From contig NZ_JACGLS010000001.1 in the NCBI RefSeq assembly GCF_014062345.1, positions 186,001 through 250,000 on the forward strand: 64,000 nt of DNA, given 5' to 3'. The first letter of the stretch is position 1; each line of letters starts with the position of its first letter. The position numbers and the translations under genes are program-made. Of this stretch, positions 29,529-35,204 are shown in pieces. Source of the stretch: Tenacibaculum pelagium. GTDB taxonomy: Bacteria; Bacteroidota; Bacteroidia; Flavobacteriales; Flavobacteriaceae. A model generated the notes under the pieces. The model saw only the letters and a list, made by a program, of their open reading frames with translations, searched no databases and was not told the origin of the DNA.

Positions 29529-32132
29529 ATGAATTTTAACAATTATACAATAAAATCACAAGAAACCATTCAACAAGCGCAACAATTAGTGCAAGCAAAT
29601 GGAAATCAGCAAATAGAAAATGAGCATATTTTCAAAGCTTTATTTACAGTTGATGAAAATGTGTTACCATTTATATTAAAGAAACTCAACATTAATATTG
29701 ATGTTGTTCAACAAATTTTAGACAAACAATTAGAAAGTTTTTCTAAAGTTTCTGGTGCAGAATTAATGCTTTCTCGTGAAGCAAGTAAAACGCTTAATGA
29801 AGCGTCTATAATAGCTAAAAAAATGAACGATGAATATGTTTCTATCGAACATTTAATTTTAGCAATTTTTAAATCAAAAAGTAATATTGCTCAAGTTTTA
29901 AAAGATCAAGGTGTAACTGAGAAATCATTAAAATTAGCAATAGACGAATTACGTAAAGGAGAAAGAGTTACTTCACAAAGCGCAGAAGAAACTTATAATT
30001 CTTTAAATAAATACGCTAACAATTTAAACCAACTAGCACAAGACGGAAAATTAGATCCAGTTATTGGTCGCGATGAGGAGATTCGTAGATTATTACAAAT
30101 TTTATCTCGTAGAACTAAAAACAATCCAATTTTAGTTGGTGAACCTGGAACAGGTAAAACCGCTATCGCAGAAGGTTTAGCACATAGAATCATCCGTGGT
30201 GATGTTCCTGAAAATCTAAAAGATAAAGTAATTTTCTCCTTAGATATGGGTGCTTTAATTGCCGGAGCTAAATTTAAAGGAGAATTTGAAGAACGATTAA
30301 AATCAGTAGTAAAAGAAGTAACAACTTCTGATGGAGACATTGTATTATTTATCGATGAAATTCACACTTTAGTTGGTGCTGGTGGCGGTCAAGGTGCTAT
30401 GGATGCTGCAAATATTTTAAAACCTGCTTTGGCTCGTGGAGAATTACGCGCAATTGGTGCCACTACCCTAGATGAATATCAAAAGTATTTTGAAAAGGAC
30501 AAAGCTTTAGAACGACGTTTTCAAAAAGTAATTGTTGATGAACCAGATACAGAAAGTGCTATTTCTATTCTTCGTGGAATTAAAGATAAATATGAAACAC
30601 ACCATAAAGTTAGAATTAAAGACGAAGCTATTATTGGCGCGGTAGAATTATCGCAACGTTATATTACCAATCGTTTTTTACCAGATAAAGCTATTGATTT
30701 AATGGATGAAGCGGCTTCTAAACTTAGAATGGAAATCAATTCTAAACCAGAAGAATTAGACGTTTTAGACCGTAAAATAATGCAACTAGAAATTGAAATT
30801 GAAGCGATTAAACGTGAAAATGATGAAGTCAAACTAAAATCTCTAAACGCAGATTTAGCCAACTTAAAAGAAGAACGTAACGAGATTAATGCTAAATGGC
30901 AATCAGAAAAAGCTGTAGTAGATACTGTTCAGAAATTAAAAACTGATATTGAAAACTATAAGTTAGAAGCTGATAAAGCTGAGCGCCAAGGTGATTATGG
31001 AAAAGTAGCCGAGTTACGCTATGGTAAAATAAAAGAAGCGCAAGAAGTACTTGAAAAGCAACAAGAGGTATTAGCCAATCAAAGTGAAAATGCTTTAATA
31101 AAAGAAGAAGTAACTTATGATGATATTGCGGAAGTAGTTGCAAAATGGACAGGTGTACCTGTAACAAAAATGTTACAATCTGAACGTGAAAAATTATTAA
31201 AGCTAGAAGACGAATTACACAAACGTGTGGTTGGACAAGAAGAAGCTATTGAAGCGGTATCTGATGCAGTTCGTAGATCAAGAGCTGGATTACAAAATCC
31301 GAATAAACCAATTGGTTCTTTTTTATTCTTAGGAACGACTGGTGTTGGTAAAACAGAATTAGCAAAAGCATTAGCAGATTATTTATTTGATGATGAAAAT
31401 GCAATGACTCGTATTGATATGAGCGAGTACCAAGAGCGTCATTCAGTAAGTCGTTTGGTAGGAGCTCCTCCAGGATATGTAGGTTATGATGAAGGTGGAC
31501 AATTAACAGAAGCGGTTCGTAGAAAACCATATTCAGTAGTATTGTTAGATGAAATAGAAAAAGCACATCCAGATACTTTTAATATTTTATTGCAGGTATT
31601 AGATGAAGGTAGGTTAACAGATAATAAAGGGCGTGTTGCAGATTTTAAAAACACTATAATTATCATGACTTCAAATATGGGAAGTCATATAATTCAGGAA
31701 AAATTTGAAAATATGAAAGGTGATATCTATACAACTATGGATTTAGCCAAAACAGAAGTTCTTGGTTTATTAAAGCAAACGGTTCGTCCTGAGTTTATTA
31801 ATAGAATTGATGATATTACTTTGTTCGCTCCTTTATCTCAAGATAACATCAAACAAATTGTAAAATTACAATTGAATAGTGTTAAGAAAATGATAGCAGA
31901 ACAAAACATTACACTAGATGCAACGGATGAAGCTGTTGATTATTTAGCAAAAAAAGGATATCAACCAGAGTTTGGAGCGAGACCTGTTAAACGTGTTATT
32001 CAAAAAGAAGTATTGAATCAGTTATCTAAAGAAATATTATCAGGTAAAGTAACAACTGATAGTATCATTTTACTAGATGCTTTTGATGATAAGCTCGTGT
32101 TTAGAAATCAATCGGATTTAGTAGAGAATTAA
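29529..32132 (+). CDS. clpB: ATP-dependent disaggregase ClpB
   Basis: An 867-residue Hsp100 disaggregase that works with DnaK to rescue aggregated proteins. An N-terminal Clp repeat domain (1-150) is followed by AAA1 with Walker A GEPGTGKTAIAEG and Walker B VLFIDEIHTLVGAG, the ClpB-specific coiled-coil middle domain (about 410-530), and AAA2 with GTTGVGKTELAKAL and VVLLDEIEKAHPD. The C-terminus has the D2 small domain (GYQPEFGARPVKRVIQKE). Length is as usual for ClpB and the long middle domain separates it from ClpA/ClpC. Probably heat-induced. It ends in a strong terminator. Confidence 0.97.
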   Translation: MNFNNYTIKSQETIQQAQQLVQANGNQQIENEHIFKALFTVDENVLPFILKKLNINIDVVQQILDKQLESFSKVSGAELMLSREASKTLNEASIIAKKMNDEYVSIEHLILAIFKSKSNIAQVLKDQGVTEKSLKLAIDELRKGERVTSQSAEETYNSLNKYANNLNQLAQDGKLDPVIGRDEEIRRLLQILSRRTKNNPILVGEPGTGKTAIAEGLAHRIIRGDVPENLKDKVIFSLDMGALIAGAKFKGEFEERLKSVVKEVTTSDGDIVLFIDEIHTLVGAGGGQGAMDAANILKPALARGELRAIGATTLDEYQKYFEKDKALERRFQKVIVDEPDTESAISILRGIKDKYETHHKVRIKDEAIIGAVELSQRYITNRFLPDKAIDLMDEAASKLRMEINSKPEELDVLDRKIMQLEIEIEAIKRENDEVKLKSLNADLANLKEERNEINAKWQSEKAVVDTVQKLKTDIENYKLEADKAERQGDYGKVAELRYGKIKEAQEVLEKQQEVLANQSENALIKEEVTYDDIAEVVAKWTGVPVTKMLQSEREKLLKLEDELHKRVVGQEEAIEAVSDAVRRSRAGLQNPNKPIGSFLFLGTTGVGKTELAKALADYLFDDENAMTRIDMSEYQERHSVSRLVGAPPGYVGYDEGGQLTEAVRRKPYSVVLLDEIEKAHPDTFNILLQVLDEGRLTDNKGRVADFKNTIIIMTSNMGSHIIQEKFENMKGDIYTTMDLAKTEVLGLLKQTVRPEFINRIDDITLFAPLSQDNIKQIVKLQLNSVKKMIAEQNITLDATDEAVDYLAKKGYQPEFGARPVKRVIQKEVLNQLSKEILSGKVTTDSIILLDAFDDKLVFRNQSDLVEN

Positions 32133-32154: not shown

Positions 32155-32184
32155 AAAAGCCAAAACCTTAGTGTTTTGGCTTTT
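32155..32184 (+). terminator. Intrinsic terminator of clpB
   Basis: AAAAGCCAAAAC and GTTTTGGCTTTT form a perfect 12-bp stem around a CTTAGT loop, 22 bp after the stop codon. Confidence 0.85.
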
Positions 32185-32241: not shown

Positions 32242-32802
32242 ATGAACGAATTTTTACTTAAATTGGTTATTAACATTATTATATCTGTTATAATAATTCG
32301 TTTTATCTACTACAAATCAACAAAAAACAGTGATTATGTCTTTACGTATTTTGTTATTGGTTTAATTGTTTTTTTACTGTGTTATTTACTTAAAAGCATA
32401 GAACTTCAATTAGGTTTTGCATTAGGGTTATTTGCTATTTTTGGGATTCTTCGTTATCGTACTTCTGCTATTAGCATTAAAGAGATGACTTATCTTTTTT
32501 CGATAATAGGCTTATCAATAATCAATTCATTAACAGAATGGTCTTATTATAAAGAGCTTTTAGTTTCTAATATTATAGTGATTGTTTTTATTGGAGTTTT
32601 AGAAAATATTTTCACCCATAAAAAACTAAAATCTACTACAATCACATATCCTAATTCAAATCAACTTAATTTAAAAAATCAAAGAGAATTAATAAAATCT
32701 ATTGAGAATGATTTAAATGTTACTATTCAAAAAATTGACGTGAAGAAGATAGATTACCTTAATAACACTACGGATATAACGATACACTATTCCACAGCTT
32801 AA
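32242..32802 (+). CDS. DUF4956 membrane protein
   Basis: A 186-residue inner-membrane protein with about four helices in the first 120 residues and a soluble C-terminal domain of 65 residues that looks ferredoxin-like (ESIENDLNVTIQKIDVKKID is the key stretch at 150-175). The hallmark FALGLFAIFGILRYRTSAIS (about 56-75) identifies DUF4956. In other bacteria this family often sits beside VTC-type polyphosphate polymerases or CotH-like proteins; its function is unproven. Here it starts a three-gene plus-strand unit: its stop overlaps the start of the dikinase-like gene (32802), and a phosphatase lipoprotein follows. Confidence 0.85.
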   Translation: MNEFLLKLVINIIISVIIIRFIYYKSTKNSDYVFTYFVIGLIVFLLCYLLKSIELQLGFALGLFAIFGILRYRTSAISIKEMTYLFSIIGLSIINSLTEWSYYKELLVSNIIVIVFIGVLENIFTHKKLKSTTITYPNSNQLNLKNQRELIKSIENDLNVTIQKIDVKKIDYLNNTTDITIHYSTA

Positions 32803-34703
32803 TGAACTATAAACTTGTAATATTAGCTTTTTTATTATGCTCGCTTGGTGTAAACTCACAAAGCTATAAAAGTAGTTTAGCCTCCAAAGCTGATTTTGAC
32901 AAACTATCATATAAACCTTTGTCTAATAAATACGGTATTGTTAAATCTTTAAAAGTTGTCTATGATTTAAAAAACAAAAAGCTTTATTACACTAATAGTG
33001 AACAATATAAATATCATTATGAATTTGTTATAAATTATTTAGGAATAACTCAAGAGCTTCAAAACTTCAACAACTATAACTATAATGAGGCTCATAAAAA
33101 TAAACGCTATTTATTAGCTAATATAAATTACTACAATAACCTAAACACTTACACCTTAGAGCTCTCACCTGCTGATGAAATGAATATAAAAGACATTTCA
33201 TTTTTATATAAAGAAATTAAAAGTACTTCTTATTTTAAAAAATTTAAGTTTTTTTTAAACACCTCAAGATTAGTCGCAGAAAAACAAAATTTAACTATAC
33301 CCTTTATAACTGTAGATAAAATCTATGGAAATCAGATATATCAACCTATTTCATTAAATAAATCTTATGGAAAACTACGTTTTATCGATATTGATAATCT
33401 AAAAAATGAGAATATAATTAAAACAGATATTGTTGTTGTAAATAAACCAGTGTTAAGCTTACCTATTGTAAATGGGATTATAACAACTAGAATGCAAACT
33501 CCATTGAGCCATATTTCTGTTTTAGGAATTAACAGAAAAATTCCAGTAGCTACTTATAAAAAAGCATACACAAATAATCATCTTAAAAAGTTAAAGAATC
33601 AATATGTTTCATTTGAGGTAAAACTAGATACTTTTTACGTTAAACCTATTTCAGAAAAGAAATTTGAAAGAAAAACTAAACCCAAAAAGAAAAGGTTGAA
33701 AAACCTAAAAATAAGAGGAGATATTGACTCATTAATTTCAGGTAAATACCTAAATTATAAAATGATTGATATCGTTGGTGGTAAAGCAGCTAATTTTGGA
33801 GAATTATATAAACTTGCTCAAACAAATAATTTTAAAGTTCCTGAATGTTCATTTGCCATACCTTTCCATTATTATTTACAACACATTAAAAATCAAAACA
33901 TTTACGAGTTAATAGACAAAACCATCAACGATTATAATACCAACAAAAATGATAGCCTTCTTTTTATCAATTTAAAAAACATTCGAAAGAAAATTAAAAA
34001 AGCTCCCATAAATACTTCCTTAATTACCAACACAAATAATAGAATTAGTAAAAATTGTGCATATAAAAGAATCCGATTTAGAAGTTCTACTAACGCAGAA
34101 GATATTATTGGTTTTAGTGGTGCTGGCTTATACACTTCGAAAACAGGTATTTTAAACGACACTAAAAAAACTTTTGAAAAAGCCATTAAAAAAGTATGGG
34201 CTAGTTTATGGAACAAAGAAGCATTTTTAGAAAGGGAATTATTTAATATAAATCAAAAAACTGTAGCAATGGGTATTTTAGCACATCGTTCTTTTCCTAA
34301 TGAAATTGCTAACGGAGTCGCTATAACCAAAAATTTATATAGAAAAGATTTTTATGGAAATGTAATTAATATGCAGCTAGGAGAAGAACCTGTTGTGAAT
34401 CCTAATAAAGATATTACGAGTGAGCAAATTTTGTGTTATGAAGGTGCTGATGTTGAGCTTTATAATAAAAAGAAAGCAATAGAAATAATAACTTATTCGA
34501 GCTTAAGTAAGAATAAATTAATACTTAATGATCAAGAGATTTTAAGTTTAGCAAAACAATTGAATGTTATAAAAAAGCACTTTTATAAAAAAGTATACAA
34601 AAGACGAAAATCCTTTCTTAATTTTGGTTTAGATATAGAATTTAAAATTGATGGAGACAATAGAGATTTATATATCAAACAAACCAGATACTTTAACGAT
34701 TAG
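32802..34703 (+). CDS. Exported glucan-water-dikinase-like protein (His domain + PPDK-type ATP-grasp)
   Basis: A 633-residue protein with a signal peptide (MNYKLVILAFLLCSLGVNSQ). Residues 21-200 are unassigned. A PEP-utiliser swivelling domain follows (about 205-275), with the phosphohistidine motif TPLSHISVLGINRKIPVA (His237). Then comes a complete PPDK/PEP-synthase ATP-grasp domain (about 318-633): VGGKAANFGEL (Lys328), RFRSSTNAEDIIGFSGAGLY (Arg427, Glu433), AIKKVWASLWNKEAF, and DIEFKID with LYIKQTR at the end. PEP synthase has the opposite order plus a TIM barrel. His domain before a C-terminal ATP domain, and the phrases SNGED-GAGLY-like and KKVWASxWN, are as I recall in plant alpha-glucan water dikinases. 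No carbohydrate-binding module is recognised. Export makes the ATP source a puzzle. Confidence 0.75.
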   Translation: MNYKLVILAFLLCSLGVNSQSYKSSLASKADFDKLSYKPLSNKYGIVKSLKVVYDLKNKKLYYTNSEQYKYHYEFVINYLGITQELQNFNNYNYNEAHKNKRYLLANINYYNNLNTYTLELSPADEMNIKDISFLYKEIKSTSYFKKFKFFLNTSRLVAEKQNLTIPFITVDKIYGNQIYQPISLNKSYGKLRFIDIDNLKNENIIKTDIVVVNKPVLSLPIVNGIITTRMQTPLSHISVLGINRKIPVATYKKAYTNNHLKKLKNQYVSFEVKLDTFYVKPISEKKFERKTKPKKKRLKNLKIRGDIDSLISGKYLNYKMIDIVGGKAANFGELYKLAQTNNFKVPECSFAIPFHYYLQHIKNQNIYELIDKTINDYNTNKNDSLLFINLKNIRKKIKKAPINTSLITNTNNRISKNCAYKRIRFRSSTNAEDIIGFSGAGLYTSKTGILNDTKKTFEKAIKKVWASLWNKEAFLERELFNINQKTVAMGILAHRSFPNEIANGVAITKNLYRKDFYGNVINMQLGEEPVVNPNKDITSEQILCYEGADVELYNKKKAIEIITYSSLSKNKLILNDQEILSLAKQLNVIKKHFYKKVYKRRKSFLNFGLDIEFKIDGDNRDLYIKQTRYFND

Positions 34704-34706
34704 AAA

Positions 34707-35204
34707 ATGAAATATTTTAAACTTTTTATACTATTATTCTTAGTAAGTTCATGTACTCAAAAAGAGACTGAAACAACTACTTACTATTTAATTCGTCATG
34801 CAGAAAAAGATAGGACTGATAAAACGAATAAAAATCCAGATTTAAATAATAAAGGATTAGAAAGAGCTAAAAAGTGGTCGGAAATATTAAAAAATGTAGA
34901 ATTTGATATGATTTATTCCACTAACTATAATAGAACCCAACAAACGGCTAAACCAACTGCAGATAGTAATAACCTAGAAGTTTTATCATATAATCCAAAT
35001 GATATGTATAATCTTAAGTTTCAAAAAGAAACTATAGGAAAAACAGTTTTAATAGTTGGGCATAGTAACACTACTCCATTTTTTGTCAATAAAATTTTAG
35101 AAAAAGAAAAACATCAACAAATAGATGATCGCAATAATGCTAACTTATATATTGTTAATGTTCAAAATGGTATAAAAACCGATATTCTATTAAAAATAGA
35201 GTAA
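34707..35204 (+). CDS. SixA/PGAM-like histidine phosphatase lipoprotein
   Basis: A 165-residue lipoprotein (signal MKYFKLFILLFLVSSC; Cys16). The histidine-phosphatase core has the nucleophile motif LIRHAEKDRTD (His31), a substrate-loop region DMIYSTNYNRTQQTA with the second arginine, and the second catalytic histidine in VGHSNTTPFFVNK. Small size and sequence place it nearest the SixA/SixA-like group, some of which remove phosphate from phosphohistidine; others act on phosphate esters. It starts 3 bp after the stop of the dikinase-like gene, and a functional link (removing phosphate that the dikinase adds, or resetting its His) is inference. Confidence 0.8.
   Translation: MKYFKLFILLFLVSSCTQKETETTTYYLIRHAEKDRTDKTNKNPDLNNKGLERAKKWSEILKNVEFDMIYSTNYNRTQQTAKPTADSNNLEVLSYNPNDMYNLKFQKETIGKTVLIVGHSNTTPFFVNKILEKEKHQQIDDRNNANLYIVNVQNGIKTDILLKIE

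Follow-up and report, generated by a model that had tools for sequence, protein, structure and literature searches.

A two-gene unit of a marine bacterium that probably adds phosphate to a component of the cell envelope

Two adjacent genes of the marine bacterium Tenacibaculum pelagium probably form a unit that adds phosphate to a component of the cell envelope. They lie in the 64,000-nucleotide stretch of DNA analysed here (the window, whose first letter is position 1). In the reading that we prefer, to which we give a probability of about 0.6, they are a cassette for envelope phosphorylation composed of an exported dikinase and a DUF4956 partner in the inner membrane, with a surface polysaccharide as the most plausible acceptor. 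The dikinase would belong to the superfamily of PPDK, plant glucan water dikinases (GWD) and rifampin phosphotransferase (RPH). Its ATP-grasp domain would hand a phosphoryl group to His237 on a swivel domain. Either in the periplasm or on the outer surface of the cell, the swivel domain would then deliver it to an acceptor, which the conserved N-terminal domain probably binds. The DUF4956 protein would dock the enzyme, supply the donor or regulate the reaction. How phosphate is transferred outside the cytoplasm has long been puzzling, since little donor is expected to be available there. The family described below is widespread and predicted to be exported, and it combines an intact His-relay dikinase core with one recurring membrane partner.

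The gene trio and the dikinase-like protein

The initial annotation placed three coupled plus-strand genes at positions 32242-35204, and the ORF coordinates and both junctions agree with this. Gene 1 (32242..32802, 186 aa) encodes the DUF4956 inner-membrane protein, gene 2 (32802..34703, 633 aa) the predicted exported dikinase-like phosphotransferase, and gene 3 (34707..35204, 165 aa) a SixA-like histidine phosphatase lipoprotein. Genes 1 and 2 overlap by one base in the sequence TAATG, and 3 bases separate genes 2 and 3. The trio is beyond chance as judged from sequence comparison: the window dikinase is 68-78% identical to three close members of its family (and 91% to a fourth, L014), and the order DUF4956-dikinase-SixA is kept in five Tenacibaculum loci. 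A terminator-like inverted repeat, AAAGCCAAAAC...GTTTTGGCTTTT, was seen by eye between clpB and gene 1 (32156..32184, no strand assigned) and is absent from the output of the consensus scan. The scan for promoter consensus sites gave 37 sites against a shuffle mean of 27.2 and was uninformative. No polysaccharide gene was recognised by eye among the ORFs at 28-40 kb of the window, a point against the preferred reading.

The dikinase belongs to a large family, predicted to be exported, in Bacteroidota and Fibrobacterota, from which 80 of at least 516 loci were kept. Some loci end at contig ends, and 3 kb of flank is present on both sides in only 53 of the 80. Residue conservation was read from an alignment of 68 rows. 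Besides the window protein it contains 62 contig loci (out of the 80) and a further five, L180-L182, L185 and L186; near-duplicates, one truncated sequence, the 800-aa forms and some others were left out.

The signal peptide that had been proposed for the middle protein is borne out as a prediction. The N-terminus (...GVNS followed by QSYK) satisfies the Q-rule for signal cleavage before Gln, as formulated in the available text of PMC5837995; the predicted signal peptide spans approximately residues 1-19 (32802..32858, plus strand), and Gln20 would be the new N-terminus. An N-terminal hydrophobic stretch is present in 60/60 ATG-starting dikinases, compared with 63/114 other ORFs of 500-900 aa from the same loci, and a Q-rule or lipobox signal in 48/60 compared with 41/114. 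The export signal is thus conserved in the family, and export itself is predicted. Two dikinase relatives that were scanned carry a T9SS tail (Por_Secre_tail).

Residues 20-176 (32859..33329, plus strand) form an N-terminal domain in which K51, H72, N90, Y94 and N109 are invariant in all 68 aligned members. It had no Pfam match and no PDB sequence match; the fold search listing for the dikinase was filled by the other domains, and the fold of this one was barely probed. We regard it as a candidate acceptor- or partner-binding domain. The swivelling phosphohistidine domain and complete PPDK-type ATP-grasp recognised earlier are both upheld by the predicted structure. The AlphaFold model (pLDDT 92.9, pTM 0.90) matches the swivel His domain of rifampin phosphotransferase over residues 177-283 (Z 12.5, rmsd 2.5, 99 aligned) and its ATP-grasp over residues 307-633 (Z 30.4, rmsd 2.2, 289 aligned). 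The swivel domain extends over residues 177-290 (33330..33671, plus strand), with the codon of His237 at 33510-33512. The ATP-grasp occupies residues 307-633 (33720..34700, plus strand), of which 323-629 match PF01326 (PPDK_N) with 98.2 bits against a cut-off of 27, the only PPDK_N match found in the T. pelagium genome. The ORF ends with the ATP-grasp, and neither the ORF nor the Pfam matches leave a PEP-binding barrel, as had been noted.

Little ATP is expected outside the cytoplasm, which would fit an exported protein that is catalytically dead and structural or sensory in function. This is very improbable, as the active-site residues are invariant in 68/68 aligned members: His237 together with the Lys, Arg, Asp, Glu and Gln of the ATP-grasp (K328, R427, E433, D434, D611, E613 and Q627).

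The preferred reading, of a working exported dikinase, can be set beside three known systems. In GWD a swivel phosphohistidine domain is followed by a C-terminal PPDK-type ATP-grasp, with no PEP barrel, and the window protein and the related PWD share this layout, with the His domain directly before the ATP-grasp. It differs from them in being bacterial, predicted to be exported and about 630 aa long, with another N-terminal domain and no matched carbohydrate-binding module (no Pfam match to CBM45 or CBM20 at E <= 1). The GWD1_pHisD profile (PF22973) is sub-threshold on the window dikinase (20.6 bits, cut-off 27); it matches 23/68 family members at E <= 0.01, and among those whose bit scores were inspected one, L050, exceeds the curated cut-off with 30.7 bits. 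Of the proposed resemblance to plant GWD, only the architecture stands. RPH has the same ATP-grasp and swivel folds, and according to the accessible part of PMC4844700 it moves His-carried phosphate from ATP onto a non-pyruvate acceptor. Its order, however, is ATP-grasp, acceptor domain and His domain, where ours is N-terminal domain, His domain and ATP-grasp, and the curated RPH model NF041857 gave 47.9 bits, over residues 320-509 only, against a cut-off of 999. The ATP-grasp and swivel His domains are likewise homologous to those of PEP synthase and PPDK, but the window protein lacks the pyruvate/PEP barrel, has another domain order and is predicted to be exported; the PEP synthase model TIGR01418 scored 94.1 bits, below its cut-off of 739.75.

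Recurrence of DUF4956 with the dikinase

The product of gene 1 matches PF16316 (DUF4956) over the whole profile (1-169 of 169; 157.6 bits, cut-off 30.6). Its AlphaFold model (pLDDT 76.9) has five helices within residues 2-125 and a small alpha/beta domain at approximately residues 127-186. R71 and R73, with codons at 32452 and 32458, are invariant in 31 aligned sequences. A fold search with the model gave no PDB match at E <= 0.001; the weak matches were mostly to the small C-terminal domain and a few to the helices. Yeast VTC and MgtC entries were not among the fold matches listed, which is no argument against kinship. Pfam found no MgtC domain in the gene 1 product at E <= 1; a pel-linked protein with four TM segments and an ACT domain carries an MgtC domain, according to the available text of PMC12345266.

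To examine the pairing we used a phylum sample of 395 genomes, in which a dikinase match was called strong at E < 1e-100 (9 of the 67 genomes among the matches listed; the weaker matches include PEP-synthase-like ATP-grasps and a family of 970-1041 aa). DUF4956 was found above its cut-off in 9/9 genomes with a strong dikinase and in 76/386 others (Fisher p 7e-7, kinship ignored), and it adjoins the dikinase in 8 of the 9. Among 59 relatives the corresponding counts were 4/4 and 10/55. In genus g21, among the genomes listed, DUF4956 was present in all six with the dikinase and in none of the 15 others; because the two genes are adjacent, joint gain or loss within a genus is trivial. Related genomes in all these counts are non-independent. 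In a further set of 50 genomes, those best matching among the 80 dikinase loci, 44 contained DUF4956; the six in which it was not detected are the isolate Olleya sediminilitoris and five MAGs, by title. The pairing is thus not obligate.

Three arrangements of the two genes were observed: in the same direction, tail-to-tail, and in a dikinase-VTC-DUF4956 operon (L070 and L083). On the dikinase tree these arrangements lie apart from one another, although about three gains are enough to account for them. The conserved recurring unit, as far as gene order and content indicate, is the first two genes, and the proposal that DUF4956 is a membrane partner gene is strengthened by its recurrence. The expectation, set beforehand, that all three genes would co-occur in other genomes was borne out for DUF4956 and the dikinase; a three-gene module that includes SixA was not supported in the form proposed. 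We found no description of the DUF4956-dikinase pair in the literature searched, which was mostly titles and the openings of abstracts. A MORN_2 gene was considered as a third partner and rejected, since the profile found MORN_2 in only 2/80 loci.

The dikinase might instead sit at the surface or in the periplasm and phosphorylate glycans that the cell scavenges, or other substrates from outside, so that they can be taken up, with DUF4956 a mere genetic neighbour. The T9SS tails of the relatives fit this, as does the distance between the genes: DUF4956 lies close to the dikinase in only 10/80 loci (8 adjacent, 2 with VTC between; 3 more are about 9 kb away) and is not close by in the other 70. 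Its presence in 44/50 dikinase genomes as against 76/386 others, and the three separate arrangements, make scavenging unlikely. Adjacency also follows VTC: in the phylum and 50-genome sets together, DUF4956 adjoins the dikinase in 16/17 genomes without VTC and in 0/36 with it; contig positions were also used for the count with VTC, as some loci are truncated. We retain the two-gene cassette, with DUF4956 as the probable partner of the dikinase.

The SixA-like gene

Gene 3 had been described as a lipoprotein of the SixA/PGAM family, and it matches PF00300 with 56.3 bits and carries a lipobox by pattern test. It is a member of the histidine phosphatase superfamily, as SixA is, but differs from SixA in being a lipoprotein and in falling below the cut-off of the SixA equivalog model TIGR00249 (31.7 bits, cut-off 74.5). 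The initial annotation made it the reversing phosphatase of a three-gene module that adds and removes phosphate, dephosphorylating the dikinase or its product. As a conserved unit this module was rejected after a survey of the genus. Thirty-five genus-mates, all without the dikinase, were compared; 27 carry a close homologue of the SixA-like gene, and ClpB lies within 1.5 kb of it in 19 of the 27. Since it occupies the same clpB-smpB region in most of the genus-mates searched, SixA is a resident neighbour. It adjoins the dikinase in only 5/80 loci, all titled Tenacibaculum, and lies 2.6-5.1 kb away in 3/80 (Olleya).

The three-gene reading is kept as a rival because of two genomes of a separate lineage, G042 and G055, in which a predicted exported SixA-like gene directly adjoins a T9SS-tailed relative. 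Two separate juxtapositions of a once-per-genome gene look unlikely to arise by chance, and the 3-base gap between dikinase and SixA is identical in the window and the five Tenacibaculum loci (the listed distance of 7 includes the stop codon). Against the genus counts these points leave a three-gene module rather unlikely. We consider that SixA has been at this locus for longer and now lies downstream in the gene unit; its membership of a module is doubtful, and it may or may not have been recruited.

VTC, CotH and the role of DUF4956

DUF4956 also accompanies other genes, which we followed with CotH, VTC and DUF2490 profiles whose seeds were picked by eye and one of each confirmed with Pfam. 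In the phylum sample CotH is present in 75/85 genomes with DUF4956 and in 59/310 others. The dikinase is present in 7/10 of the DUF4956 genomes that lack CotH and in 2/75 of those with it, and a CotH kinase or the dikinase is found in 82 of the 85. That the dikinase replaces CotH is only half true: the two are not exclusive, because CotH also occurs in 39 of the 50 genomes that were selected by their dikinase. DUF4956 accompanies VTC in 56/56 VTC genomes of the phylum sample, and VTC adjoins DUF4956 in 20/20 of the dikinase-genome regions fetched. VTC is absent from 29 of the 85 DUF4956 genomes, 8 with the dikinase and 21 without, and 20 of these 21 have CotH; the idea that DUF4956 without VTC always signifies a dikinase was rejected on the 21. 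Some VTC genes have a neighbour that encodes a protein of about 630 aa; these proteins proved unrelated to the dikinase.

Clusters of CotH, a VTC polyphosphate polymerase and DUF4956 are pel-linked in streptococci and clostridia and occur with DUF2490 in Bacteroidota. They resemble the window in that the same DUF4956 family adjoins an exported phosphotransferase, but here the kinase is of PPDK/GWD type, and the T. pelagium genome gave no match to VTC or CotH. Because the same family accompanies a VTC-type polymerase and exported CotH in other Bacteroidota, DUF4956 is most readily interpreted as the membrane part shared by several envelope phosphorylation systems, with a surface polysaccharide as the most plausible acceptor. 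In our reading of these gene neighbourhoods, DUF4956 would be a membrane partner of exported phosphotransferases, its partner here being a GWD/RPH-like dikinase that acts on an envelope acceptor. DUF4956 thereby gains a testable role and the dikinase is tied to exopolysaccharide-linked CotH/VTC clusters. The natural comparisons (with and without VTC, tail-to-tail and operon) should be useful for identifying donor and acceptor.

DUF4956 might itself carry polyphosphate or a nucleotide through the inner membrane, as a channel or by handing it on, and so provide exported phosphotransferases with their phosphoryl donor, as in the yeast VTC channel, where the accessible portion of PMC9911596 describes polyphosphate synthesis as coupled to translocation. 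The constant company and adjacency of VTC, the dikinase-VTC-DUF4956 operon, the presence of CotH or dikinase in nearly all DUF4956 genomes and the invariant Arg71 and Arg73 speak for such a conduit. The absence of a VTC match in T. pelagium and the five-helix model, with no PDB match at the threshold given above, speak against it. To our knowledge PPDK-type ATP-grasps work with ATP, not polyphosphate, a further point against, and we think the conduit improbable. We give equally little credence to its extended form, in which DUF4956 would pass the donor (polyphosphate from VTC, or a nucleotide where VTC is lacking) to exported phosphotransferases with two unrelated folds, CotH and the new dikinase family, for phosphorylation of surface polysaccharides.

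A polysaccharide acceptor for the preferred cassette, with DUF4956 as partner, is favoured by the pel clusters. In the available text of PMC7112168, pel operons are adjoined by CotH, a polyphosphate polymerase, DUF4956 and DUF4832. According to the accessible part of PMC12345266, deletion of the CotH gene or the four-TM and ACT gene of S. intermedius alters Pel amount and aggregation. Against the link, deletion of SIR_1592 raised Pel, and SIR_1591-1594 are dispensable for Pel production itself. From gene order and topology we infer that SIR_1592 is DUF4956.

Locus organization and the sixA neighbour

In the window's genome (2.62 Mb), the DUF4956 gene (32242-32802, +) lies 3′ of clpB and overlaps the following dikinase-like gene (32802-34703, +) by one base (TAATG). 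A SixA-like lipoprotein gene (34707-35204, +) begins three bases past the end of the dikinase gene, and beyond it are a DUF6503 gene on the opposite strand and then smpB; clpB and smpB were named by eye. A terminator-like hairpin 3′ of clpB was also read by eye, and is absent from the consensus scan listing. The minus-strand interval 29993-31566, antisense to clpB, contains three ORFs (91-115 aa) that are most likely mechanical.

The initial annotation grouped all three genes into one module that adds and removes phosphate. Of 35 genus-mates, all lacking the dikinase, 27 carry a homologue of the SixA-like gene; ClpB is encoded within 1.5 kb at 19 of these loci, and SmpB or DUF6503 at 23. Thus sixA is resident, and the dikinase pair sits between clpB and sixA. 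In Olleya the dikinase is likewise 3′ of clpB, with sixA 2.6-5.1 kb further along. Five genus-mates (L122, L127, L128, L140 and L145) carry 1.2-1.4 kb of other DNA between clpB and sixA, so this interval may be an insertion site for differing genes. A role for SixA is not wholly dismissed, because genomes G042 and G055 show a second juxtaposition, an exported SixA-like gene directly adjoining a dikinase with a type IX secretion (T9SS) tail. An exported SixA-like gene immediately next to a 1.3-kaa T9SS-tailed dikinase relative occupies L008:9298-13834 and L009:5068-9602, in two genomes of one family.

Domains, predicted export and proposed reaction of the dikinase

The dikinase-like protein matches the Pfam family PPDK_N (98.2 bits, residues 323-629) and, below threshold, the phosphohistidine domain of GWD1 (residues 223-287). 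An AlphaFold model built from a 68-row alignment (pLDDT 92.9, pTM 0.90) shares two folds with rifampin phosphotransferase (RPH): the ATP-grasp (Z 30.4, rmsd 2.2, 289 residues) and the swivel His domain, matched by residues 177-283 (Z 12.5, rmsd 2.5, 99 residues). H237, K328, R427, E433, D434, D611, E613 and Q627 are invariant across the 68 aligned dikinases. According to the excerpt of PMC4844700, the two-step reaction of RPH involves Lys22 and Arg117 of the ATP-grasp, plus His825, and we infer that K328, R427 and H237 are their counterparts. In the N-terminal domain K51, H72, N90, Y94 and N109 are invariant in 68/68 sequences, and this conservation suggests a binding site there.

The relay chemistry proposed here follows what is established for the superfamily. 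Most likely, outside the cytoplasm, a phosphoryl donor would bind the ATP-grasp, His237 would then receive phosphate, and the swivel domain would carry it to a putative acceptor located on the N-terminal domain. The DUF4956 protein would be the inner-membrane partner.

An N-terminal hydrophobic stretch was found in all 60 ATG-starting dikinases, compared with 63 of the 114 control ORFs (500-900 aa) taken from the same loci. In a stricter test, with the Q-rule for signal peptides as described in part of PMC5837995, the 60 dikinases comprised 31 of Q-rule type, 17 with a lipobox, 10 with a hydrophobic stretch only and two that failed; the 114 control ORFs gave 31 and 10 of the first two classes. 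A laxer first test discriminated poorly (77/79 dikinases versus 245/458 others). A type IX sorting domain is present at the C-terminus of the dikinase relatives in L009 and L010. From these sequence features, export of the family is predicted, through different signals within one family.

Association of the dikinase with DUF4956

In a phylum sample of 395 genomes, nine had a strong dikinase match (E < 1e-100). DUF4956, counted above cut-off, was present in 9/9 of these and in 76/386 others (Fisher p 7e-7, kinship ignored), and adjoined the dikinase in eight; seven of these pairs are tail-to-tail, and that of the window's genome is co-directional. Among 59 relatives, DUF4956 occurred in 4/4 strong-match genomes versus 10/55 others. 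In one genus (g21) it was found in 6/6 dikinase genomes versus 0/15 others listed, but given the adjacency of the two genes in that genus, the contrast may reflect one linked gain. The co-directional, tail-to-tail and operon arrangements occupy distinct positions in the dikinase tree, with four changes in total, a number as low in 0/200 shuffles. The genes were therefore probably joined on some three occasions. Adjacency seems to have been lost in the Olleya clade, and a search of two Olleya genomes detected no DUF4956. Neither this gene pair nor a family of exported dikinases was found described in the literature searched, which included few subscription papers.

The 50 best-matching named dikinase genomes contained DUF4956 in 44, a VTC-type polyphosphate polymerase in 36 and the exported kinase CotH in 39. 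Where VTC was absent and DUF4956 present, a dikinase-adjacent DUF4956 was found in 8/9 genomes of this set and 8/8 of the phylum set; where VTC was present, in 0/35 and 0/1, respectively (a species may occur in both sets). These counts do not include L070 and L083, in which dikinase, VTC and DUF4956 form a single tight run (L070 Pfam-checked). VTC adjoined DUF4956 in all 20 DUF4956 regions fetched from VTC-bearing dikinase genomes, with CotH (own profile) at most four genes away in one.

A MORN_2-repeat gene lies near DUF4956 in tail-to-tail loci (L058:12435-13268 and L180-L185; L058 and L181 Pfam-checked), and L019:11946-12311, adjoining a dikinase, has a weak MORN_2 match.

DUF4956 with VTC and CotH, and the wider dikinase family

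In the phylum sample DUF4956 was present in 56/56 VTC genomes, and CotH in 75/85 DUF4956 genomes versus 59/310 others (kinship ignored). Seven of the 10 DUF4956 genomes without CotH have the dikinase; therefore 82/85 have one or the other (kinship again ignored). In 14 DUF4956 regions from relatives, read by eye, VTC adjoined in 12, CotH was near in seven and all three were together in six, as also in L205; Pfam confirmed a single example each of VTC, CotH and the DUF2490 barrel. VTC-DUF4956 pairs are frequent in Bacteroidota (L166, L168, L169, L171-L179, L189-L208); a DUF2490 barrel often accompanies them, and CotH sometimes does.

In the portion of PMC7112168 available, the pel operon of streptococci and clostridia is adjoined by CotH, polyphosphate polymerase, DUF4956 and DUF4832 genes. 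Extracts of PMC12345266 describe Streptococcus intermedius SIR_1592 as four TM segments plus an ACT domain, and SIR_1594 as CotH. In one medium, aggregation fell to less than half on deletion of either gene; the two deletions shifted Pel level in opposite directions, Pel still being produced. Gene order and topology point to SIR_1592 as the DUF4956 gene; in the model of the window's DUF4956 protein, a small alpha/beta domain likewise comes after a helical bundle. In the same extracts, the authors found no CotH/VTC/four-TM synteny outside the Pel locus, in contrast to the six regions and L205 noted above and to the frequent VTC-DUF4956 pairs. In sections of PMC6848847 and PMC10434189, DUF4956 genes figure only among those differentially expressed, and in one of PMC11677781 a single Clostridium perfringens locus is listed with both CotH and polyphosphate polymerase genes.

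The boldest reading, that DUF4956 supplies donor through the inner membrane to exported CotH kinases and dikinases that phosphorylate surface polysaccharides, seems to us improbable. It is weakened in the window's genome because an own-profile search found no VTC match there; a donor other than the VTC product could serve.

A scan of species genomes confirmed at least 516 dikinase stretches. Of the best 80 loci, which were kept, nearly all are titled Bacteroidota and three Fibrobacter or Chitinispirillaceae (L069, L075, L081); among these 80, the closest named relatives of the window's dikinase are from Tenacibaculum (Flavobacteriaceae), with five other loci of that genus. The dikinase is rare in the genus (0/35 genus-mates searched), the sole match (E 8e-9) covering only the ATP-grasp in an 802-aa frame.

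A longer family has a PPDK_N ATP-grasp near the C-terminus (L101:1369-4281, −), with similar frames of 970-1041 aa in L100-L107, L109, L113 and L120. L101, the one read, begins with a signal-like stretch and contains an upstream LVSH motif, so Bacteroidota may have two or more architectures of exported dikinase-like proteins. L085, L087 and L089 carry dikinase variants of about 805-810 aa; the N-terminal extension gave a CarboxypepD_reg-like match below cut-off in both variants scanned (L087, L089). One or several small membrane-protein genes (93-153 aa) lie directly 5′ of the Chitinophagaceae-type dikinase (L070:25-1573, L071:9564-9881, L083:8893-9743).
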